Positions 39,978 through 55,450 of a stretch of DNA of 64,000 bases are shown here, piece by piece. The position numbers and the translations under genes were made by a program. Below the pieces are notes generated by a model that had not been told where the DNA came from, ran no database searches, and saw only the letters and a list, made by a program, of their open reading frames with translations. The stretch spans positions 1 through 64,000 of the forward strand of contig MENK01000027.1 in the NCBI GenBank assembly GCA_001768235.1, in the 5' to 3' direction. Numbering within the stretch: position 1 is the stretch's first letter; each line of letters opens with the position of its first letter. The DNA comes from Bacteroidetes bacterium GWB2_32_14. GTDB taxonomy: Bacteria > Bacteroidota > Bacteroidia > Bacteroidales > UBA12077.

Positions 39978-41357
39978 TCAAAAACTATATTTCAGTTTAA
40001 ACATCATCATATTATACTCCCCTAAATTTGCAAATACGTTTTCTCCTTTCCCGTCAAATATAGCCGCTGACAATATTATTTCAGCATTATCTGTTGCCAT
40101 GTATGAGGCTTCTGGGATATAAATCAGGGCATAATTATTTCCAACATCATTCCAATCTGAAACAATAAAACCTCCTGCCAATGGTGCTATTTTTAATTTA
40201 TCGTCAAAAAAATTTCTCTCTAACTGGACAAAGAAATAGTCGTTTAAATTATCTGTACCTCTTTCATTTATAAAACCGTGTAAGTATTGTATATTAAGAT
40301 AAGTTCCATTAGCAAAATTGTAATCGGCACCCAAAACAAACTTTACATATGCTTCTTTATCTAATACTGTTGTATCCTGAGTTACAGGAACAGGCGACAT
40401 TGGATACATTGCAGACAAATCATTTGTCATAACAACTTTGCTTTCCGGCAAAAAAGCTGCCGCTTCTGCCCAAACGCCAATACCACCAATACTCCCAGCC
40501 AAATCAGCTCCAAAAATATGTGTACGATAAAACGAAAGTTGAGAATTTATATTTATTGCACCGAGTGTATCAGCAGGTGAAAATGTATTGTATGTTGCAA
40601 CAGGCATTCCATCTATGCCCCAAACATAGCTTAACGAGAAATCAAACCCGGCTGCAAAACCTTTAAATTTTAATCCTGTAGTTGTGCTTTCGCTTAAATT
40701 GTATTCAGGCATTTTTGTTTGGTCAGTAAACCCGTTTAAAGTCATTCCTTGTGGTAATTCCAGCGTAGGATTCAGGGCGTTGGCAAAAATTCCAACGGGC
40801 ATAGTTGCCGGTTGAAAAAAAGGAATATAAGCCCCTTGCAGAGAGAATTCGGAATTAAAATAGTAGTCAAAACTTATAGCATCAGAACCTCTGTGGCGGC
40901 CAAAATCCAGAACATCTTCTAAATCATAAGGATTTAGATTATCTGTCGGATTTAGTTTATCGCCAGTACCCCAGGTAATTCTTTGGCGGCCAACTTTTAT
41001 ATCCAGATTATCTGTTAAAAATCCCAATAGTTGAACGTAAGCTTCTCTAACTTCCAGGTTATAAGGATCAACTATACTTTTATTGTATAAATCGGCAGAT
41101 GAACTAATATTTGGAAGTCCCATGTTTCTTAACCATATTTCACTGTAAAATCTAGAATTCCCAGTTATTTTTTTATCAAGATTCAGGGTTAAACGATTTT
41201 CATTCCACGCCCAATCATTTTGTTCCTGAAGCAATAAGCGTTGGTCGGTAAATAATTCTCCTGATAATTTTAAATTAGTAATTTCTTGTGCTTTTGTAAT
41301 ATTTATGCTAATTAAAAGCATTGTCATCATTATAAAAATTAAATTTATTCGTTTCAT
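39978..41357 (-). CDS. DUF1302-like outer-membrane porin/beta-barrel
   Basis: REAYVQLLGFLTDNLDIKVGRQRITWGTGDKLNPTDNLNPYDL; C-terminal MMMFKLKYSF. Confidence 0.8.
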   Translation of the reverse strand: MKRINLIFIMMTMLLISINITKAQEITNLKLSGELFTDQRLLLQEQNDWAWNENRLTLNLDKKITGNSRFYSEIWLRNMGLPNISSSADLYNKSIVDPYNLEVREAYVQLLGFLTDNLDIKVGRQRITWGTGDKLNPTDNLNPYDLEDVLDFGRHRGSDAISFDYYFNSEFSLQGAYIPFFQPATMPVGIFANALNPTLELPQGMTLNGFTDQTKMPEYNLSESTTTGLKFKGFAAGFDFSLSYVWGIDGMPVATYNTFSPADTLGAININSQLSFYRTHIFGADLAGSIGGIGVWAEAAAFLPESKVVMTNDLSAMYPMSPVPVTQDTTVLDKEAYVKFVLGADYNFANGTYLNIQYLHGFINERGTDNLNDYFFVQLERNFFDDKLKIAPLAGGFIVSDWNDVGNNYALIYIPEASYMATDNAEIILSAAIFDGKGENVFANLGEYNMMMFKLKYSF

Positions 41358-41361
41358 GATT

Positions 41362-42045
41362 TTATAATATTTGAAATTGATTTTTTATTGTTTTTGTTAC
41401 TAAATCGTAATTTTTGAATACTGTCTGGGCTATTTGATGCCCTTCTTTCATAAACTCCATTATTGCCTGGGAAGAATTTGTTTTATCAAACTTCGTGGGA
41501 TGTATTAACCCGTTTAACATTACATACTTAATTTTTTTGCCTTCGGATTGATAATAAAGATTGATGAGTGTTTCTACACCAAACCTTGAATGTTTCATTT
41601 TATCAATGATTGGCAGGATATCTTTCTTTAAAAGAACTCTTTCACCAGTAAATGATTTAAACGGATTATACTTATAATTTATCAGGGTTTCTGTTGCCTG
41701 GCCTAATACCATATCTGCTTCATTTTCAATAACAGGAATTAATAGCTGCCAAAAATGTTCATCTTTTAAATTTGATAAGTCAGCATCTATAAACACGATT
41801 ATTTCACTGTTGGCATTCTCAATTCCGGTTGCCATCGCAAATCCTTTTCCTTTGTTTTCAGGTAAAGCAATGTATTTGAAGTTATAAAACCTGCTTATTT
41901 CATTTAATATTTCATCTGTTTTATCAGACGAACCATCGTTTACGATGATAACCTCATCAAAAAAATAATCTAAAATAGTTGTTACTACATTCTTGATTGT
42001 ATCCTGTTCGTTAAATGCACATATTATTGCTGTTGTTCTCATCAT
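41362..42045 (-). CDS. Glycosyltransferase family 2
   Basis: AIICAFNEQDTIKNVV...IIVNDGSSDKT...VFIDADLSNL. Confidence 0.9.
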   Translation of the reverse strand: MMRTTAIICAFNEQDTIKNVVTTILDYFFDEVIIVNDGSSDKTDEILNEISRFYNFKYIALPENKGKGFAMATGIENANSEIIVFIDADLSNLKDEHFWQLLIPVIENEADMVLGQATETLINYKYNPFKSFTGERVLLKKDILPIIDKMKHSRFGVETLINLYYQSEGKKIKYVMLNGLIHPTKFDKTNSSQAIMEFMKEGHQIAQTVFKNYDLVTKTIKNQFQIL

Positions 42046-42920
42046 GCGACAGTTTTAAATTTTTTAATTGCTTCAATTGTTGCTCTTCTTCCTTCTTCAA
42101 TTAATTTCTCTGATTTATAGAAATCATAAGTTCCAAAAGAATCTTTTGAAATATTTATTAAAATATCAGGTTGATATTTTTCTAATGTCATTAAGGATAT
42201 TTGGTTGAGCATTAAACCCGTTGTTTTATTTAATAAATTAAAATATCCGATTTTATCTGAGTCATTTTGGGGAATAAAATAATCGAGTTTATTTATGACA
42301 GAATTTATATACTTAGAATATTTTTTTTCTTCTTGATTATTATCCTCCGGTATTTGATTGGTAATATTTGGAATACGTGAGTTTACATCAACTACCACTA
42401 AAATATCGCCGTCGAACCTTTCCGCCCTGTTAATTGGAATAGGATTTATAACACCTCCATCTACTATATAGTAACCATCTTTAATTAAGGGTGTAAATAC
42501 CGTTGGTATTGATATGGATGCCCTTATAGCATAATATAAACTACCCCTGTTAAAAACAAGTTCTTTATCATTACTTATATCGGTAGCAACAGCAACAAAA
42601 GGGACAGGTAAATCTTCAATATTTCTATCAGGAATCATTTTTTTCATTTCTCTTAATATTTTATCTCCTTTTATAATGCCATTCCTGCTAAATGTAAAAT
42701 CAATGAGATTAAAAACATCCATTTTATCCAAAGAACACATCCATTCTTTATAAACATCAAGTTTCCCGGTTGCATATATTCCTCCAACTAAAGCGCCCAT
42801 GGATGTTCCCGCAATTGATTTAATCTCGAAACCTTGTTTTTCAAGTTCCTCAATAACTCCAATATGTGCAACACCTCGTGCGCCACCACTTGACAATACT
42901 AATGAAATTTGTTTTTTCAT
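42042..42920 (-). CDS. Patatin-like phospholipase
   Basis: LSSGGARGVAHIGVIEEL, GTSMGALVGG, VDGGVINPIPI; start taken at MKKQISLVLSSGG rather than the longer tracked ORF. Confidence 0.93.
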   Translation of the reverse strand: MKKQISLVLSSGGARGVAHIGVIEELEKQGFEIKSIAGTSMGALVGGIYATGKLDVYKEWMCSLDKMDVFNLIDFTFSRNGIIKGDKILREMKKMIPDRNIEDLPVPFVAVATDISNDKELVFNRGSLYYAIRASISIPTVFTPLIKDGYYIVDGGVINPIPINRAERFDGDILVVVDVNSRIPNITNQIPEDNNQEEKKYSKYINSVINKLDYFIPQNDSDKIGYFNLLNKTTGLMLNQISLMTLEKYQPDILINISKDSFGTYDFYKSEKLIEEGRRATIEAIKKFKTVA

Positions 42921-43008
42921 ATTCGTTAAGATTAAAGCTTGGGGAGAAATTGATTTTAGATTACCCGGAAAAACAAAATCGATCAGTATACTCCCCAAAG
43001 CTTACTTT

Positions 43009-43746
43009 TTACTGTTTTAATTTTCTAACAGTAAATTCTTCATCCGCTAACCCGGTATCGTATTTAACATCATTCATAATCATTTTGGTTTTATGATTCT
43101 TTTTTAAATCAGTCATTTCAATTTCTGAAGGGTTCCAGTAATTACCGATTTTATTAAAAGTATATTTTGCAACCTTAACTTTATTATTAGCCTTGTTATA
43201 ATACTCTAATAATTCAGGATAAAAATTTGTTTTATGAACCTTCATTATAATTTTTGAATAATCTGATTTTAGAGATAAGGGAATTAATTCTAAAACATAT
43301 ACGTTTCCTTCTGTATTCAGCAGTTTTGGAGTATATTTTTCCGAATATGGTTTTGATTCCATATCATCATAAGAAAAATCGGTACCGGCAAAATTTTGGT
43401 TTTTAGCGCTTGATGCAATCCTTCTTTCTTTTCCAAATGCAGGTAAATACAAATACATAACATCTTCGGGCAAAGATAAAACTGCTATGCCTGCCTGAGA
43501 CGATGGCGAGGTAAAACGAAACATTCGTTTATCTATTCCCTTTTGTTGTGTTGTTGCTTCCCGAATTTCTTCATTCCCCGATTTATCAATTAAAATCATT
43601 TTATTATTTCCAGACATATCTTTGGCTGAAAACAGGACATTGTCCACATTCTTTAAAATGGTGTTTGCATCTTGTGCATTTGCTGAAAGTAACCCTGCAA
43701 ATATGAATAATGCACTCATGATTGTTTGAATTTCTAATTTTCTCAT
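43009..43746 (-). CDS. Outer-membrane lipoprotein-sorting protein-like (LolA-like)
   Basis: Signal peptide; MYLYLPAFGKERRIASSAKNQNFAGTDFSYDDME characteristic of RND-associated LolA-like family. Confidence 0.88.
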   Translation of the reverse strand: MRKLEIQTIMSALFIFAGLLSANAQDANTILKNVDNVLFSAKDMSGNNKMILIDKSGNEEIREATTQQKGIDKRMFRFTSPSSQAGIAVLSLPEDVMYLYLPAFGKERRIASSAKNQNFAGTDFSYDDMESKPYSEKYTPKLLNTEGNVYVLELIPLSLKSDYSKIIMKVHKTNFYPELLEYYNKANNKVKVAKYTFNKIGNYWNPSEIEMTDLKKNHKTKMIMNDVKYDTGLADEEFTVRKLKQ

Positions 43747-43765
43747 AGTTTTACTTTTTTAATAA

Positions 43766-46027
43766 TTAATTTGTTAATGACTTTATTTTAATTCTCCTGC
43801 TTATTAAATTTATTACAACAGGCATAAGAGTTAGAGTTGCTATGCCAGAACTTATCATGGTAACAGCAATTAACAACCCGAATCTTTGTAGTGGAACCAA
43901 GTTTGAAAATAATAATACCAAAAACCCTAATGAAACAGATAAAACATTAATAACTATTGCCCTGCCACTAATTTTAATACTTTCTTCCAGTGCCGACTGA
44001 ACATTATTTGTTTTTTTATAATCTTCTTCAAAATGAGTTATCAGGTGTATTGCATAATCAATTCCTATTCCTACCGAAATACTTCCTACTAAAACTGTTG
44101 CAATATCAAGAGGTATTCCCGTAAAGCCCATAAATCCAAACAGGAGAATTAAAGTGGCGCTAATAGGAACTATTGCAAAAAATCCTTTAAGAGGTGATTT
44201 AAGCAATCCGGCAACGATAATAAAAACAAGAATAATTGACAGAATAAGACTATACATCTGGCTTTTTACAATACTTTGATTTAAACGTTCGTATAAAGAA
44301 GGTATTCCTGTAACTTCCATTTTGCATTCGTCGCTTTGATTTTCATTGATAAATTGTTCCAAATCATTTGAAAATTTCGATAGAGCTTCGTTATCTGTAG
44401 TAGATATATTCCCCTGAATTAGTCCTTCATCAAGGTCAGAGCTAACAAGTTGCTCCATAATATCCTGCCCATCTAACAAAAACCATAATTGTTGAATTTT
44501 TTCTTCTGATTCGGGAATCGTTTTTCCTTCTCCCATTATATTATTCATTTCCTTTATTAAATCAGCAACTGATTGAGTTTGCTTCATATATTCATTTTGT
44601 TCCATGAAAATTTGCACTTTATTCATGGTATTTAATACCTCCGGGCTTTGAACATTGCCTTTAACTGTAACATATACAGGTAAGCTGCCGGAAAATTTGT
44701 CTTGTAATAGCTTTTCGGTTTTTCGTATTGTACTTTCTTCTTTAAAATAATCAATCATATCAACTCTTCGTTCAACCTTAAATATTCCAATTACACAAAT
44801 AATTAAAATAATGGACCATATTGTAAAGGAGTATTTGGGATGCTTAAAAATGATTATTGATAGTTGTTTAAGAAAATTATTAAGTATTGTTGATTTATCA
44901 GATCGCGCCTTATCCATATTTGTATTACTTTTTGATTGGGACATAGCAATTAAAGCTGGAACAAATGTTACAGACAACACTAATGAGAAAAACACACCAA
45001 GCGCCGTGAATACTCCAAAGTCACGAATCAGGGTCAGGTACGAGCCAAAAATAAAGGATAGAAATCCAACCATTGTGGTTATTGATGCTAGAAAAACCGG
45101 AATAATAATATAAGCAACTGCTTTAAGCAATGCTTTTTTAGTATCCTGATCTTTTTCTTCATTAATTCTATTAATTACATGAATGGTATAAGCACTTCCA
45201 ACAGCTAACAATATGACAGGAATAATACTTGTAATAAGGGTTATCTCGAATTTTAATATACTCATAATTCCAATTGTCCATATTGAAGCAATTATGACTG
45301 TTGATAATGGCAGAATGACCCCTCTTGTTGTTTTAAAACTTAATAGTAAAATAAAAGCTATTAAAATAAAAGCCGATAGGCCCAACCAGATCATATCATG
45401 ACTTATTATATTCCCAATTTCAAATATCATAAAAGGAATTCCTCCATAATATATTTTTTCGGGCATATTTATTTCTGTAACCATTTCTTTTATTTGATTG
45501 GTAATGGTCGATTTATCGCTTACAGCACTATTAATTTTTGCAATAATTAAGGTTGTTGTGGCATCTTCAGAAATTAAAGACCCTCTGTACATTTCCTTAG
45601 AAAGAATGTATTGCTTGAGACTATCAAGTTCTTCATTTGTTTCAGGTAAATCGTATGCATCAATTAATTTCCCAATTTCAATTCCCCAATCACTGCCTTT
45701 AATATCTATTACATCAATTAAGCTTGTCACTGTCCCAACACCTTCAAGCGTTTTTATCGAATCGGTTAATTGCTTAATATGTTCTAATACATCTTTTTGA
45801 AAAATATTATCGGATTGAATTGCAATTAATGCCATATCGTTCCCTCCATATTTCTTTCCAACATTATTGAAAAGGACTGCTACATTATCATCTTCAGGGA
45901 GGTAACTCATTATATCAGAATTAAACTTGATATCTTTTATAAAATACCCTAGAACTAACGTTATCAACAAAGTGATGATAACTATTAGTATTCTAAATTT
46001 AACTATTGCTTCTGCTAATTTTTTCAT
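43766..46027 (-). CDS. MMPL/RND family transporter
   Basis: 753 aa, duplicated 6-TM architecture, NSDIMSYLPEDDNVAVLF, SVGIGIDYAIHLITHFEED. Confidence 0.93.
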   Translation of the reverse strand: MKKLAEAIVKFRILIVIITLLITLVLGYFIKDIKFNSDIMSYLPEDDNVAVLFNNVGKKYGGNDMALIAIQSDNIFQKDVLEHIKQLTDSIKTLEGVGTVTSLIDVIDIKGSDWGIEIGKLIDAYDLPETNEELDSLKQYILSKEMYRGSLISEDATTTLIIAKINSAVSDKSTITNQIKEMVTEINMPEKIYYGGIPFMIFEIGNIISHDMIWLGLSAFILIAFILLLSFKTTRGVILPLSTVIIASIWTIGIMSILKFEITLITSIIPVILLAVGSAYTIHVINRINEEKDQDTKKALLKAVAYIIIPVFLASITTMVGFLSFIFGSYLTLIRDFGVFTALGVFFSLVLSVTFVPALIAMSQSKSNTNMDKARSDKSTILNNFLKQLSIIIFKHPKYSFTIWSIILIICVIGIFKVERRVDMIDYFKEESTIRKTEKLLQDKFSGSLPVYVTVKGNVQSPEVLNTMNKVQIFMEQNEYMKQTQSVADLIKEMNNIMGEGKTIPESEEKIQQLWFLLDGQDIMEQLVSSDLDEGLIQGNISTTDNEALSKFSNDLEQFINENQSDECKMEVTGIPSLYERLNQSIVKSQMYSLILSIILVFIIVAGLLKSPLKGFFAIVPISATLILLFGFMGFTGIPLDIATVLVGSISVGIGIDYAIHLITHFEEDYKKTNNVQSALEESIKISGRAIVINVLSVSLGFLVLLFSNLVPLQRFGLLIAVTMISSGIATLTLMPVVINLISRRIKIKSLTN

Positions 46028-46085
46028 AATTCATTTTGTTTTTTTAGACTGTTTTTGTTTTTTGGTCATACAAGGATAAAATTTT

Positions 46086-46691
46086 TTAATTAAACCTTTT
46101 ATCTGTGGCAAAATTCTCCGGATATTTTGCATTTACATTTTTGTACATTTTATTTATTTCTGTCATTGTTGTTAGTATATTATTTGTTTCAGTAATTACA
46201 CCCTTGATACCCAATTCTTTCTTCTTATAGTCAATATAACCAATTACAATCGGGACATTTGCTTTCTCAGCCATATAATAAAATCCTTTTTTCCAATGAG
46301 TAGTTTTTGCCAATTGACCTTCGGGGGATAATACAATATGTATTTCTTTGCTATTATTAAATAATTCAGCAACCTGATTAATATATTCCTTGTTTTTATA
46401 CACCGGCATAGAACCAAAAGCTTTAAAAAAGTATTTCATAGGAAATTTAAAGAATTCCTTTTTTGATAAAAATTTATAATTAATTCCTGTATTCATTAGA
46501 TAAAGCTTACCATATAAACCATCCCAATAACTTGTATGTGGGGCAAAAATAACAATGCTCTTTTTTACATCAGGAAATTCACCTTTAATTTCCCAACCAA
46601 GCAGGTCTAATAAATATTCAGATAATCCTTTCATTCCTGTTTTATTTATTTTTTTATCAAAAAAGGGAACCCGGTTCTTTAGAAATTTCAT
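46086..46691 (-). CDS. PlsC-like lysophospholipid/1-acylglycerol-3-phosphate acyltransferase family
   Basis: APHTSYWDGLYGK (HxxxxD-type) and LSPEGQLAKT; start could also be Met at 46634. Confidence 0.85.
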   Translation of the reverse strand: MKFLKNRVPFFDKKINKTGMKGLSEYLLDLLGWEIKGEFPDVKKSIVIFAPHTSYWDGLYGKLYLMNTGINYKFLSKKEFFKFPMKYFFKAFGSMPVYKNKEYINQVAELFNNSKEIHIVLSPEGQLAKTTHWKKGFYYMAEKANVPIVIGYIDYKKKELGIKGVITETNNILTTMTEINKMYKNVNAKYPENFATDKRFN

Positions 46692-47580
46692 ATAAAATAA
46701 TCCTGTCTGTAATTCCGGGGAAATTTTTATGTAACCATACTACAAGTTTTCCTTGTTGAGTTAAAATTAAATCGCGTTCTCTTTTTAAAGTTGCTTTGGC
46801 AATAATTTGAGCTACCCTTTCAGCGGTCATCATTCCTTCTTCATTTCTTGGTGATTCTTTTTGCGGCATCCCCAGTTTGTTTAATGCTACATTCCTAATA
46901 TTTGATGAGGTAAATCCAGGATGTACCACCAATACATTCAGTCCCTTTTTTATATTTTCTAATCGTAAAGTATTTAAAAAACCAACCATTGCATGTTTTG
47001 ATGCACTGTATCCTGTTCTTCCGGGCAAGGGTGTTAGTCCTGAAATTGATGAAATACCAATTACAGTTCCTTTTTGTTTTAACAAAAAAGGCAATGCAAA
47101 TTTTGTACAGTAAACGGCACCGTAAAAATTTGTATCCATTAGTTCTTTTATTACAGATAAATCTAAATCTTCGAAAATAGCTCTCATTGATATGCCTGCA
47201 TTATTAATTAAAACATCTATTTTCCTATGTTTTTCTATTGTTTTATAAATCAGGTTTTTACAATCTCCAATATTCTTAACATCGGTTTTCACAGAAAAGG
47301 CTTCTCCTCCTTGCATTTTGATTTCATTTTCGATTTTATTTAGTTCATTAATTCTACGAGCAGCAAGAACAACTTTAGCTCCGTTAGCAGCAAATTCAAA
47401 TGCACATGCTTTACCTATGCCTGATGATGCCCCTGTTATAATAATAACCTTATCAACGAATTTATTTGTTTTCGTAATTATAGTTTCACGTTTTCTTATT
47501 TTAGGCATCGGGATATTGTATTTCTTTAATAAATCTTTATTAATATTTGTATTATTAAAAAGTTCTTTGAATTTATTCAT
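46657..47580 (-). CDS. Short-chain dehydrogenase/reductase
   Basis: IITGASSGIGKACAFEFA, NNAGIS, GYSASKHAMVGF; ATGAATAA overlap with preceding stop supports start at 47580 (tracked ORF extends to 47628). Confidence 0.92.
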   Translation of the reverse strand: MNKFKELFNNTNINKDLLKKYNIPMPKIRKRETIITKTNKFVDKVIIITGASSGIGKACAFEFAANGAKVVLAARRINELNKIENEIKMQGGEAFSVKTDVKNIGDCKNLIYKTIEKHRKIDVLINNAGISMRAIFEDLDLSVIKELMDTNFYGAVYCTKFALPFLLKQKGTVIGISSISGLTPLPGRTGYSASKHAMVGFLNTLRLENIKKGLNVLVVHPGFTSSNIRNVALNKLGMPQKESPRNEEGMMTAERVAQIIAKATLKRERDLILTQQGKLVVWLHKNFPGITDRIILYEISKEPGSLF

Positions 47581-48700
47581 TGCAGTATTTTTTATAACAT
47601 CGTACTCTTTTATTCTGTCTGTATTCAAACTTATTCCAAAGATTTTTTACCTTATTATTATTTTCCAGTTCACGGGTTGATTCAAGATTCGTAATTCCAT
47701 TTTTAATAAACGCACTCATGATTTCGTTAAAAATTAACCCATTAACACCTTTGTTCTGATACTCTTTTTGAATAGCTATAAGTAATGTATCAACGGTATC
47801 ATTTTTCCGCAAAGCATACATAATACGTAAAATACCAAAAGGGAATAATTCTCCCTTTATTTTTTGTTTTGCTTTCGAAAGAGACGGGATTGTTATTCCA
47901 AAACCAACTACTTTGTTAGTTGAATTTAAAACGATTGATACAAATTCGGGTTTTAGAATTGCTATAAATTGTTTCTTGAGTTGTTCAATTTGTTCCTTTG
48001 TTAATTCAGAAAAAGCATAAATATCAGCATATTCAATATTTAAAAGTTTAAATATATCGTCTGCATATTTTAGTAAATCCTCTTTCTTCTTCAGAATAGC
48101 ACTATGTAATTTATATCGTTTTTTAATTGAATCTGCTCCTTGTATAAATTTCTCAGGTACAGATTTTGGAACCTTAACATTATATTCAACCCAATCAATC
48201 TCTTTTTTATATCCCAGCTTTTCAATTAATGTTGAATAATAAGGGAAATTGTAGTGAGCAAAAGATGTAGGCATTTCGTTAAAACCTTCTATTAAAATTC
48301 CCGAAGGATCGAAAGATGAAAATCCCAATGGGCCATGTATATATTCCATCTGTTCATTTATTGCCCACTTTTCGACTGTTTGCAGTAATATTTTTAATAC
48401 TTCTTCATCATCAATAAAATCAAGCCACCCAAATCGTGCATATTTAATATTATTTTTTTTATTATACTTGTTATTAATGATTCCTGCCACTCGTCCAACA
48501 ATTACTCCATTCTTGGTTGCTAACCAATATCTAGCTCTACAAAATTCAAAAGCAGGGTTTTTGTCAAAAGATAACGTTTGTAATTCATTGGTATGAATGG
48601 CCGGAATGTAATAATTGTTTCCTAAATACAATTTGTCAGGAAATTTTATAAATTCTATAATTTCTTTTTTAGATGATATTTCTTTAATTACCAAACTCAT
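47573..48700 (-). CDS. GNAT-fold putative N-acyltransferase
   Basis: RARYWLATKNGVIVGRVAGIINNKY, IHGPLGFSSFDPSGILIEGF, IAIQKEYQNKGVNGLIFNEIM. Confidence 0.75.
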   Translation of the reverse strand: MSLVIKEISSKKEIIEFIKFPDKLYLGNNYYIPAIHTNELQTLSFDKNPAFEFCRARYWLATKNGVIVGRVAGIINNKYNKKNNIKYARFGWLDFIDDEEVLKILLQTVEKWAINEQMEYIHGPLGFSSFDPSGILIEGFNEMPTSFAHYNFPYYSTLIEKLGYKKEIDWVEYNVKVPKSVPEKFIQGADSIKKRYKLHSAILKKKEDLLKYADDIFKLLNIEYADIYAFSELTKEQIEQLKKQFIAILKPEFVSIVLNSTNKVVGFGITIPSLSKAKQKIKGELFPFGILRIMYALRKNDTVDTLLIAIQKEYQNKGVNGLIFNEIMSAFIKNGITNLESTRELENNNKVKNLWNKFEYRQNKRVRCYKKYCNE

Positions 48701-48844
48701 AACATCATATTAATTAATCTATTATTCTTTTTATAAAAAAATTGTTTTTGATTATCTGTTGATGAAGATAATGTGAAATTGAATTCATGCATATGTTCGT
48801 TTTATACTATTTATGTTTTTCCGTCTATATCAGGCAAAAAAAAA

Positions 48845-49426
48845 TTATTTTGATAATCCTTTTGTTAGAATTTCTGATAAATTATCAAAATAAGGTGAAT
48901 ATTTCTTGTATTTATTCTGTAGAAAAAATGGTATTTCAAGTCCTTTTAATACCATAATAACTACATCAATTAAAATATCAATATCTTCAATGGCTTTAAA
49001 ATCCCCTCTTTCAATACCTTGATTAACTATTTTTCTAATATTATTTTTTTCCCATATATCTAAACCTGTTCGCAAATCGTCAATAAAATCAAAATGTTCA
49101 AAAAAATCTGCTTTAATTGTTTCGTGGTAGTTTGCGGCACTATGTAAAATTTCCATTCTTTTAATAAAATATTTTTTTATTTTTTCGGTTGCTTTTAATT
49201 TATCATCATTAACAATAATTGATAAATTACTTTGGAGATTATATATTTCCCTTGAAACTACTTCTTTAAACAACTCTTCTTTACTCGTAAAATGATAATA
49301 TAATGAACCTTTTGCTTTTCTGGCTATTTTAGCAATTTCATCCATAGAAGTTTTATGAAATCCAAATTGGCTGAATAATTTTTCAGCTACTGTTAAAATC
49401 TTATCTTTTGTATCATCTATTCCCAT
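48845..49426 (-). CDS. TetR/AcrR family transcriptional regulator
   Basis: ILTVAEKLFSQFGFHKTSMDEIAKIARKAKGSLYYHFTSKEELF; start at MGIDDTKDK since the longer ORF starts within a TATATTTG box. Confidence 0.93.
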   Translation of the reverse strand: MGIDDTKDKILTVAEKLFSQFGFHKTSMDEIAKIARKAKGSLYYHFTSKEELFKEVVSREIYNLQSNLSIIVNDDKLKATEKIKKYFIKRMEILHSAANYHETIKADFFEHFDFIDDLRTGLDIWEKNNIRKIVNQGIERGDFKAIEDIDILIDVVIMVLKGLEIPFFLQNKYKKYSPYFDNLSEILTKGLSK

Positions 49427-49598
49427 AATAACAAAACTGACTAAAATCGTTTCAGAGTACAAATATAATATTAATTTATAAAAAGCATCATATTTTTTAA
49501 AATAAATTTCGATATTTAATTAATTCCCTTATACGCTTAAACCCCGAAACAACACTATTTGTTGGTTTACAGAACATTATTTTCGCAATAGATATGGC

Positions 49599-49862: not shown

Positions 49863-50618
49863 TTATTTTGCTTCTAGCTTTTGTAATGTCCTTAAAATAA
49901 GCTCAATTACATGATGAACGTTTTGCTCAAATATTTCAATTATCTCCTCCCAGGTAACCGGTTCTTCATCCGTTTTCCAGCAATCATAATCGGTACTCAT
50001 AGCAATGGCAGCATACGGAATTCCTATCTCGTTTGCCAGAATGGCTTCAGGTGCAGTTGACATATTAATTACATCGGCACCCCACGAACGAAACATATTC
50101 GATTCTGCCCGGGTCGAAAAACGTGGCCCCTCAATTGTAACCACTGTTCCCTGTTTATGAAATTTTAAATTCAGTTCGGTTGCCGAGAGGATTAAAAAAT
50201 TCCTGAGTTGTTTGTTAAATGGATCGGCTACAACTGTATGTTTCATATCTCCATTTTCAAACTCTTCGAAAAAACTCACTTTTCGATGCCGGGTAAAATC
50301 GATAAACTGATCGGGTATTACCAAATCGCCACGGTTAATCTCCTGGCGAAGGCTGCCACAAGCAGTAGTTGCAAGAATATATTCACATCCCTGTTCCTTC
50401 AGTGCCCAAATATTGGCCCTGTTATTTACCTGTGTTGGAGGAATTGTATGTTTTTTCCCATGACGCGATAATATAACCACATCCATATTTCCTATTTTAC
50501 CTGTTGTTAGTTCCGATGAGGGTTCTCCAAAAGGAGTTTTCACTTTTATTATTTGGGGTAATTTTAATATGTCAGGATTTTCAAGGCCCGAACCACCAAT
50601 AATTGCTACTTTAGTCAT
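49863..50618 (-). CDS. mtnP: S-methyl-5'-thioadenosine phosphorylase
   Basis: AIIGGSGLENP, LSRHGKKHTIPPTQVNNRANIWALK, EGPRFSTRAESNMFRSWGADVINMS. Confidence 0.93.
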   Translation of the reverse strand: MTKVAIIGGSGLENPDILKLPQIIKVKTPFGEPSSELTTGKIGNMDVVILSRHGKKHTIPPTQVNNRANIWALKEQGCEYILATTACGSLRQEINRGDLVIPDQFIDFTRHRKVSFFEEFENGDMKHTVVADPFNKQLRNFLILSATELNLKFHKQGTVVTIEGPRFSTRAESNMFRSWGADVINMSTAPEAILANEIGIPYAAIAMSTDYDCWKTDEEPVTWEEIIEIFEQNVHHVIELILRTLQKLEAK

Positions 50619-50620
50619 AT

Positions 50621-51205
50621 TTAAAAATATTTATGTAATTCGTTGTATGCATCGTTCAGCGTTATTCCATACGAAATAATTCCTTCAGGATGTCCTCCCA
50701 TAATGATTACTCCATGTGATTTACCTGCGTACCTTGATATTTCAGAAGCCATCCCGGGAGTTCCAAATTCTGCATCTTTATTTGTTGTTGGGAGTTTATG
50801 AATATATCGTTTCCACATTTCTTGGTTGTGAACATGTATAACTCCATTCACATTCAGATTGATTTTATATATTGCAGCATGGCTCAACGATTCTGATGAT
50901 GCTTTGGTTAACCCGACACAATGAACCCTGTTTTCTTTAATATTGAATGCTTCAACTAAAGCATAATGCTCTTTTGAAAGATTTTTTAAATTCCCGGTTT
51001 CAGAACCGGAAATAATAAAATTGTGTTTATCGTAACGCATACTTATATTTCCAAAACCAATACCATCGGGATATGCACCAATTAATCCCGATTCAAAAAG
51101 TTCCTGGCGATAAAAATTAAGAGCTGAAAAATCAGTGTCATTGAAATCAAAAGATTTTTTCTCCCAATTCAGGTTAAACTTTATATATCCTTCATCAACT
51201 CTCAT
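50621..51205 (-). CDS. Class II aldolase/adducin family protein
   Basis: GFGNISMRYD, NVNGVIHVHNQEMW, GGHPEGIISYG metal-site pattern; in operon with mtnA/mtnP. Confidence 0.88.
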   Translation of the reverse strand: MRVDEGYIKFNLNWEKKSFDFNDTDFSALNFYRQELFESGLIGAYPDGIGFGNISMRYDKHNFIISGSETGNLKNLSKEHYALVEAFNIKENRVHCVGLTKASSESLSHAAIYKINLNVNGVIHVHNQEMWKRYIHKLPTTNKDAEFGTPGMASEISRYAGKSHGVIIMGGHPEGIISYGITLNDAYNELHKYF

Positions 51206-52293
51206 TTTCTAAACTTTTCTAAATCTTGTCTATTGGCTTTGCAAATTCCCTTTTCTGTAATTAAAGCACTCACATATTTTGCAGGAGTAATATCGAAACC
51301 ATAATTTGAAACGGGGCTGTTTTCAGGCATTATTCTAATTTTTACAATTCTACTTCCATCCCACCCTTCAACATATTTTACTTCGTTCTCATCGCGTTGT
51401 TCAATAGGTATTTCTTTAATTCCATCATTTATTTCCCAGTCTATTGTAGAAATCGGGAGAGCAACATAAAAAGGGATATTATTATCGTAAGCAGCAAGGG
51501 CTTTCAGGTATGTACCTATTTTGTTTGCCACATCACCAGTTGCACTTGTACGATCACTGCCAACAATTACCACATCAACCAACCCTTTTTGCATTAGCAA
51601 ACCACCTGTATTATCGGCAATAACTGTATGTGAAATACCTTCCTGCCCAAGTTCAAAAGCTGTTAATCGTGCTCCCTGGTTACGAGGGCGGGTTTCATCA
51701 ACCCAGACATGAATTTTTATTCCTTTTTTATGAGCCAGGTAAATTGGCGCTGTTGCTGTTCCGTAATCAACACATGCCAGCCAGCCAGCATTACAATGTG
51801 TTAGAATATTTACTACATCTCCGGCTTTCGACTTGCTTATTTTTTCAATCAAAGAAAATCCAAACTCTCCAATTCTAAGGCAATTATCAATTTCTTTTTC
51901 TTTAAGCCGGTTGGCTGTTTCGAAAGCTATTTGAATTTTTTTGTCGATTGATTTTTCATTTTTAATCTGATTAATTACTAAATCGACTGCAAACTGAAGG
52001 TTTACTGCCGTTGGGCGCGATGATTTTAAGTATGAAGCTAAGCTTTCAATTTCACAATTATCTTCCGATTTAATCTGCAATAAACCTAGGTACATTCCAT
52101 AAGCCGCGGCAACTCCAATCAACGGGGCACCACGAAGCCACATTTCCTTAATGGCCAGGTAAACATCTTCGGGTGTTTTTAAATCAACAATCTTAAATTC
52201 AAAAGGCAAAAATCGCTGATCAATAATTTGAATGGTTCCCGGCTCGTTTTCTTTAACCCAGATAGTATGATAATTTTTCCCGTTTATTCGCAT
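51202..52293 (-). CDS. mtnA: S-methyl-5-thioribose-1-phosphate isomerase
   Basis: MWLRGAPLIGVAAAYG, THCNAGWLACVDYGTATAPIY, VDETRPRNQGARLTA, VGSDRTSATGDVANKIGTY. Confidence 0.97.
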   Translation of the reverse strand: MRINGKNYHTIWVKENEPGTIQIIDQRFLPFEFKIVDLKTPEDVYLAIKEMWLRGAPLIGVAAAYGMYLGLLQIKSEDNCEIESLASYLKSSRPTAVNLQFAVDLVINQIKNEKSIDKKIQIAFETANRLKEKEIDNCLRIGEFGFSLIEKISKSKAGDVVNILTHCNAGWLACVDYGTATAPIYLAHKKGIKIHVWVDETRPRNQGARLTAFELGQEGISHTVIADNTGGLLMQKGLVDVVIVGSDRTSATGDVANKIGTYLKALAAYDNNIPFYVALPISTIDWEINDGIKEIPIEQRDENEVKYVEGWDGSRIVKIRIMPENSPVSNYGFDITPAKYVSALITEKGICKANRQDLEKFRK

Positions 52294-54042: not shown

Positions 54043-54070
54043 AACCCGTGAATTATACTTTATAAAAATG

Positions 54071-54108
54071 ACATCCGGTAAAAATAAAAATCGGATGTTA
54101 TTTTTTTA
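54071..54108 (+). terminator. Rho-independent terminator
   Basis: ACATCCG GTAAAAATAAAAAT CGGATGT TATTTTTTT. Confidence 0.75.
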
Positions 54109-54157: not shown

Positions 54158-55450
54158 ATGATACAGGATTTTAAAGCCACAGAATATATTCTTGAATCGG
54201 TAAAAACCGGGAAACAATTCGAAGATCAGGGTTGGACACTTGATGCACCCGGAGAAACCGAACCAACGTTAGTACGAGCCATTTACAAGAACAAACAATT
54301 AAATGTTAAAGACAATTCGTTTGGTATTTATAAGTTTGCTGACTGGCTTCCTGTTAAAAAAATTTTAAAAGGCTCATCGGCACCTGTTACATATAAAAGC
54401 GAAGGATTGGCAAAATATATTGGATTGGAAAATCTTTACATTACTTTTAGTGGTTATTGGCCTGAGAAAGGTGCTGATTTCAGGACTTGTTCATTTAAAG
54501 AAACAGAGGCATATTCTGTTTGTGCCCGCATGGATTCCGAAATGAAAAAGACCCTTGTCGTTGCATCTGCAGGAAATACAGCACGAGCTTTTGCCCGCGT
54601 TTGTTCCGATAACAGTATTCCATTATTGCTCTGTGTTCCTGAAGATAACCTGAATGCACTCTGGTTCGACGAGCCAATAAAAGATTGTGTCAAGCTGATT
54701 TCAACACGCTCGGGTAGTGATTATTTCGATGCAATTCATCTTTCAAACCTTGCCTGTCAGATTGAAGGATTTATAGCCGAAGGCGGGGCAAAAAATGTAG
54801 CCCGCCGCGATGGGATGGGAACAACCGTTCTTTCGGCAGTAACTCAAATTGGGCGAATCCCCGATTATTATTTCCAGGCAGTTGGCAGCGGAACCGGTGC
54901 CATTGCAGCATGGGAGGCAAATCTCAGGTTTATTGAAGACGGACGGTTTGGTAAAAATAAAATGAAATTAATGGTTTCGCAGAATCACCCGTTTATTCCC
55001 ATACATGATGCATGGAAAGCAGATTCCCGCCCAATGCTCCCGTACGATGATAGCGAGGCCCGCAAACATGTTGAAGAAATTGCTGCAAAAGTTCTTTCGA
55101 ACAGGAAACCACCATATCCAATTGCAGGAGGACTTTACGATGCAATGAAAGATGCCGGGGGTGATGTTTTACTGGCAACAAACAAAGAATTGCACGAGGC
55201 CGCAGGAATTTTTAAACAAACCGAAAGAAACGATATTCATTGTGCTGCCGCCGTGGCTGTTGCAACTTTAATAAATGCATTTAAAACAGGGAAAATAGAG
55301 AAAGATGCTTTGGTAATGCTTAATATTACGGGTGGTGGCGAAGAATGCTTTAAAAAAGAGCATAATCTCTATTATTTAAAACCTGCACATGTTTTTGAAA
55401 TAAATCCTGAATTGGAAAAAGTAAAAGAAGTTCTCGATAAATTATTTTAA
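54158..55450 (+). CDS. Cysteate synthase-family PLP enzyme (threonine synthase paralog)
   Basis: FKETEAYSVCARMD PLP-Lys region, VASAGNTARAFARVC, AVGSGTGAIAAWEANLR, LNITGGGEE; start at MIQDFKATEY rather than tracked 54068. Confidence 0.85.
   Translation: MIQDFKATEYILESVKTGKQFEDQGWTLDAPGETEPTLVRAIYKNKQLNVKDNSFGIYKFADWLPVKKILKGSSAPVTYKSEGLAKYIGLENLYITFSGYWPEKGADFRTCSFKETEAYSVCARMDSEMKKTLVVASAGNTARAFARVCSDNSIPLLLCVPEDNLNALWFDEPIKDCVKLISTRSGSDYFDAIHLSNLACQIEGFIAEGGAKNVARRDGMGTTVLSAVTQIGRIPDYYFQAVGSGTGAIAAWEANLRFIEDGRFGKNKMKLMVSQNHPFIPIHDAWKADSRPMLPYDDSEARKHVEEIAAKVLSNRKPPYPIAGGLYDAMKDAGGDVLLATNKELHEAAGIFKQTERNDIHCAAAVAVATLINAFKTGKIEKDALVMLNITGGGEECFKKEHNLYYLKPAHVFEINPELEKVKEVLDKLF

Follow-up and report, generated by a model that had tools for sequence, protein, structure and literature searches.

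By its sequence, the gene at 54158-55450 encodes an ordinary full-length cysteate synthase, a further example of something already described, which very probably makes L-cysteate that feeds a SulA/CapB-type acyltransferase and sulfonolipid synthesis. The window, by which we mean the whole 64,000-nucleotide stretch analysed here, corresponds to contig C27 in an assembly of 3.66 Mb that is 98.95% complete. Sulfobacin synthesis from phosphoserine by way of cysteate, 3-ketocapnine and capnine has been described (PMC11211663, PMC10191378); the mechanism itself is known, and the window adds a genome that carries both committed sulfonolipid enzymes. In the route that we propose, SerA/SerC would supply phosphoserine, sulfate activation and reduction by CysC-D-N and CysH would yield sulfite, and the PLP enzyme would swap the phosphate of O-phospho-L-serine for sulfite to give L-cysteate. 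The SulA/CapB-type acyltransferase on contig C24 would then condense cysteate with acyl-ACP to 3-ketocapnine, which an SDR would reduce to capnine and an N-acyltransferase would acylate to the sulfonolipid.

Family identity and boundaries of the gene

The original prediction placed the protein in the cysteate synthase family and proposed TIGR03844, the equivalog model of that family, as the check. In the NCBIfam search the protein reached 478 bits against this model (cut-off 324.9) over profile positions 1-395 of 398, so that the assignment is borne out at the equivalog level, and a solved cysteate synthase is among the relatives of the protein. The latter, 9k3c/9k3o, carries the deposited name “Cysteate synthase” and leads the Protein Data Bank matches, with 625 bits for residues 3-430. 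The alignment to 9k3c runs end to end and covers 428 residues at 64.7% identity; we found no paper on structure entry 9k3c. Pfam returned the general PLP-enzyme domain alone (77 bits).

The same searches bear on whether the gene could be a mis-assigned threonine synthase, a reading that draws on distant homology and on the fact that threonine synthases come next among the solved structures (~30 bits). No model for a threonine synthase or a dehydratase came near its cut-off. The best threonine-synthase model, PRK08197, scored 53.4 bits against a cut-off of 303, the thrC model 19 bits against 167.1, and all NCBIfam models after TIGR03844 and PRK08197 stayed at or below 26 bits, with no diaminopropionate ammonia-lyase model among the matches of the protein. 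Across all of NCBIfam, neither of the two families that had been named as competitors therefore scored better than cysteate synthase. In addition, the genome has a separate threonine synthase gene (thrC 184.7 bits, over the cut-off), and the gene studied here is thus not needed for threonine. The score comparison already refutes a threonine synthase, short of an assay, and we give this reading next to no probability.

The FK of the SFKETE motif corresponds to residues 113-114, and K114 is presumed to be the PLP lysine by analogy with the SFKD of threonine synthase. Both F113-K114 and the phosphate-binding loop A136-S137-A138-G139-N140-T141, part of a conserved ASAGNTxR loop, are retained by 99% or more of the 114 homologues in the alignment and also by 9k3c. 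By the same threshold 75 positions are near-invariant, 74 of which are retained in 9k3c.

The predicted coordinates of the open reading frame proved exact, with an ATG at 54158 and a stop codon that ends at 55450 (Table 1). The longest mechanical ORF opens at 54068 and adds 30 residues; we regard 54158 as the better start, since the extension opens within a terminator-like hairpin (folding energy −17.4 kcal/mol, z = −6.5, none of the shuffled sequences equally stable) and 9k3c aligns from residue 3 of the shorter protein. The upstream hairpin also suggests that the cysteate synthase gene is transcribed alone. Its GC content is 40.5%, compared with 33.7% for the window, and its third-position GC of 0.31 falls inside the range of its neighbours (0.20-0.36), which leaves no case for a foreign origin.

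Table 1 Features in the window and elsewhere in the genome (G000).
Feature	Location	Strand	Description
Cysteate synthase gene	54158..55450	+	430 aa, PLP-dependent, threonine-synthase-like fold type
Terminator-like hairpin with T run	54064..54105	+	Separates the upstream DUF6268 gene from the start of the cysteate synthase
Lipid-type gene run	39978-49462	minus	TetR, GNAT, SDR, PlsC-like acyltransferase, MMPL exporter, LolA-like, patatin-like phospholipase, glycosyltransferase 2, DUF1302 porin-like
SDR	46657-47628		In the window
Methionine salvage run	49863-52293	minus	Methylthioadenosine phosphorylase, class II aldolase-like, methylthioribose-1-phosphate isomerase
Cysteate fatty-acyltransferase (SulA/CapB/CFAT type)	G000:C24:48369-49607	minus	Type by nearest solved relatives
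Row beside the acyltransferase	L019:629-6649 (G000:C24)		PAPS-reductase-like, ABC-ATPase coiled-coil, DndE/HerA-like ATPase, RhuM-like
Second, distant GNAT copy	G000:C24:174965-176074		
Threonine synthase	C22:20247 (L002)		Separate gene
PLP protein	L152:1159-2667 (G000:C22)		503 aa, adjoins threonine synthase

The acyltransferase and the supply of precursors

The original prediction had called for a search for a cysteate fatty-acyltransferase among the alpha-oxoamine synthases, and this search was successful. Picked from the PF00155 proteins of the genome, the enzyme on C24 has as its nearest solved relatives 7u7h (637 bits) and 28eh (“Cysteate-C-fatty acyltransferase”, 613 bits), against 245 bits to the serine palmitoyltransferase 3a2b. 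No NCBIfam equivalog exceeded its cut-off for this protein; the best, the serine palmitoyltransferase model NF047600, reached 310 of 640 bits, and this sub-cut-off score agrees with a predicted specificity other than serine palmitoyltransferase. SulA is told apart from Spt by Lys281 (Radka et al., PMC9304779), a position at which Spt has alanine, and the K281A primer of that study translates to SQLYA-A-SLPMP. The C24 enzyme reads SQIFAKSLPMP, with the SulA-diagnostic lysine present. Structure 7u7h is deposited under a general name, and we take it to be the SulA of A. finegoldii because the primer translates to its matching stretch, SQLYA-K/A-SLPMP.

The presence of genes for both precursor routes makes it plausible that phosphoserine would be supplied via SerA/SerC and sulfite via CysC-D-N/CysH. 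SerC scored 447 bits (cut-off 253) and is adjoined by a partial-length SerA-like (phosphoglycerate-dehydrogenase-like) gene of 307 aa, which at 206 bits does not reach its cut-off; the genome also has CysC, CysD, CysN, and CysH.

PF00291 recovered four PALP proteins from the genome, namely a dehydratase, the threonine synthase, a 503-aa distant relative of CysK, and the cysteate synthase, none of which is a canonical CysK/CysM. This would suit an enzyme that acts mainly as an O-phosphoserine sulfhydrylase, turning phosphoserine and sulfide into cysteine in place of the missing CysK, or one that catalyses both reactions, as would the lower frequency of CysK/CysM-type genes in genomes of the order with cysteate synthase (23/57) than in those without it (98/140; Fisher p = 1.8e-4, a value that ignores kinship). 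However, we consider either version improbable, as membership of the TIGR03844 equivalog and the tie to the acyltransferase favour cysteate, the CysKM association is uncorrected for kinship, and the 503-aa protein, which reaches 105 of 351 bits with the cysK model, is a candidate unusual cysteine synthase. Moreover, the genus-mates G386 and G478 carry cysteate synthase and CysKM-type genes together, and a second role in cysteine synthesis is given low weight for this reason. In its wider form, the proposal that the archaeal-type cysteate synthase of Bacteroidales without CysK/CysM is bifunctional, also making cysteine from phosphoserine and sulfide, appears unlikely; if true, a bifunctional enzyme would couple the supply of cysteine to that of sulfonolipid.

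Co-occurrence, gene neighbourhoods and distribution

Among 197 genomes of the order, the synthase (E < 1e-60) was found in 57 and the acyltransferase (E < 1e-100) in 147, with both genes in 55 genomes, the synthase alone in 2, the acyltransferase alone in 92, and neither in 48. The acyltransferase thus accompanies the synthase in 55/57 genomes, compared with 92/140 of those without it (Fisher p = 1.2e-6, with related genomes counted as independent, which they are not, so that the p-value overstates the strength of the link). A lipid role would lead one to expect that the synthase hardly ever occurs in a genome that lacks the acyltransferase, as is the case here, and the two synthase-only genomes, G341 and G388, are fragmented assemblies. 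The 92 acyltransferase-only genomes presumably use another source of cysteate, such as CapA. CysKM-type genes as an alternative cysteate synthase in these genomes are not supported, since their frequency is alike in the acyltransferase-only genomes (65/92) and in those with neither gene (33/48).

Cysteate might instead go to a soluble sulfonate (sulfopyruvate/coenzyme M, sulfolactate or taurine), given that archaeal members of the family are mentioned as serving coenzyme M synthesis (PMC12713407, PMC12068725). We hold this to be very improbable, because a dedicated cysteate acyltransferase is present and co-occurring, whereas the beta subunit of sulfopyruvate decarboxylase (TIGR03846) has no match over the cut-off genome-wide (best 32.6 bits, cut-off 221.5). 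The earlier remark that coenzyme M genes are missing concerned the window; it now extends to the whole genome for TIGR03846, the one coenzyme M enzyme searched for. The earlier preference for a lipid role over coenzyme M is supported by the genome evidence, and the organism would probably make the lipid.

We sought 18 neighbour genes of the cysteate synthase at 84 homologous loci, 80 of them named and 4 unnamed. Neighbours such as MTAP, MtnA, HAD, DUF6268, DUF3078, and the alpha/beta hydrolase are retained in the nearest kin alone (L021, L022, L023), so that the gene is not part of an operon. The synthase and the acyltransferase lie on separate contigs (C27 and C24) and share no conserved neighbourhood, and for the test sequences used, CapA not among them, no consistent PALP partner emerged in 20 further acyltransferase neighbourhoods. 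The row of genes beside the C24 acyltransferase (Table 1) presumably resembles a defence island of the DNA phosphorothioation (Dnd) type.

Regarding the later steps, known 3-ketocapnine reductases (CapC/KCR) are too divergent for assignment by sequence (PMC11211663). No such reductase gene was found among the neighbours of the C24 acyltransferase, which are a thioredoxin-reductase-like gene, a lipoprotein, CoaBC, RecN, and a FabI-like gene. The GNAT/SDR/PlsC-like/MMPL run at 43766-48700 is unsupported as the missing reductase and N-acyltransferase: the GNAT family is equally common in genomes without the acyltransferase, genus-mates have no close copy, and homologous loci do not keep the run next to the synthase. 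The longer lipid-type run of the window looks like an operon for lipid/glycolipid synthesis and export, and a second, distant GNAT copy lies on C24; the window also holds a methionine salvage run.

The best 80 named relatives are 64-88% identical and nearly all from Bacteroidales or unclassified Bacteroidota, including Marinifilum, Ancylomarina, Carboxylicivirga, Plebeiobacterium, Draconibacterium, Maribellus, and Mariniphaga; those of Marinifilum and Ancylomarina (Marinifilaceae) are 75-79% identical. The genus-mate G386 carries a protein identical to that of MAG GWF2_33_16, which places the organism of the window in an uncultured genus. With 57/197, the archaeal-type enzyme occurs in over a quarter of the sampled genomes of the order, and also in many Marinifilaceae, Marinilabiliaceae, and Prolixibacteraceae. 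In these groups the enzyme marks the cysteate step better than homology to CapA does.

When sampling was widened to 299 genomes from across the phylum, only 5 had the enzyme, 4 of them outside the order and in a single family, f30, a lineage outside the class. The f30 synthases (L101-L104, in G244, G188, G248, and G085) are 35% identical, exceed the TIGR03844 cut-off, and form a far-removed clade, while the alpha-oxoamine synthases of that family reach only ~250 bits. The link between synthase and acyltransferase is thus not found in the same form everywhere. Possibly, f30 is another sulfonolipid lineage that uses a different acyltransferase.

Comparison with known systems

The closest solved relative, 9k3c/9k3o, aligns over the full length at the identity given above and shares all but one of the near-invariant positions, and no functional difference was seen.

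Labilibaculum is a genus that we take to belong to Marinifilaceae. Capnine lipids make up 24-33% of the lipids of Labilibaculum euxinus, in which the cysteate step was assigned to a CapA match of 32% identity (PMC12927429). Together with the close relatives of the enzyme in Marinifilum and Ancylomarina, this abundance speaks for the lipid reading. As the archaeal-type enzyme occurs in other Marinifilaceae, the CapA assignment may deserve a second look.

CapA of Capnocytophaga/Ornithobacterium and Cys of Chryseobacterium gleum carry out the same reaction, from phosphoserine and sulfite to cysteate (PMC10191378, PMC11211663), although the archaeal-type enzyme is described as only distantly related to CapA (PMC10191378). 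The Methanosarcina cysteate synthase, the type of TIGR03844, belongs to the same equivalog family; TIGR03844 matches Methanosarcina acetivorans. The archaeal enzyme feeds coenzyme M, whereas the genome studied here has the lipid acyltransferase and no sulfopyruvate decarboxylase beta match over the cut-off.

The nearest parallel in the literature concerns the gut genera Alistipes and Odoribacter, in which, according to a 2023 review, a homologue of the archaeal cysteate synthase replaces CapA for sulfonolipids (PMC10191378, a secondary source); in the main text of PMC9304779, the study cited there for this claim, neither “archaeal” nor “cysteate synthase” occurs. Our results place the enzyme more widely in the order. 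Both cases fall in the same phylum and share the proposed role, cysteate for a SulA-type acyltransferase, as well as scattered genes (PMC10191378); in two species the reductase, acyltransferase, and synthase genes have likewise been described as unclustered (PMC11211663). Unlike Alistipes and Odoribacter, the lineage of the window consists of uncultured Bacteroidales, in the genus of MAG GWF2_33_16.
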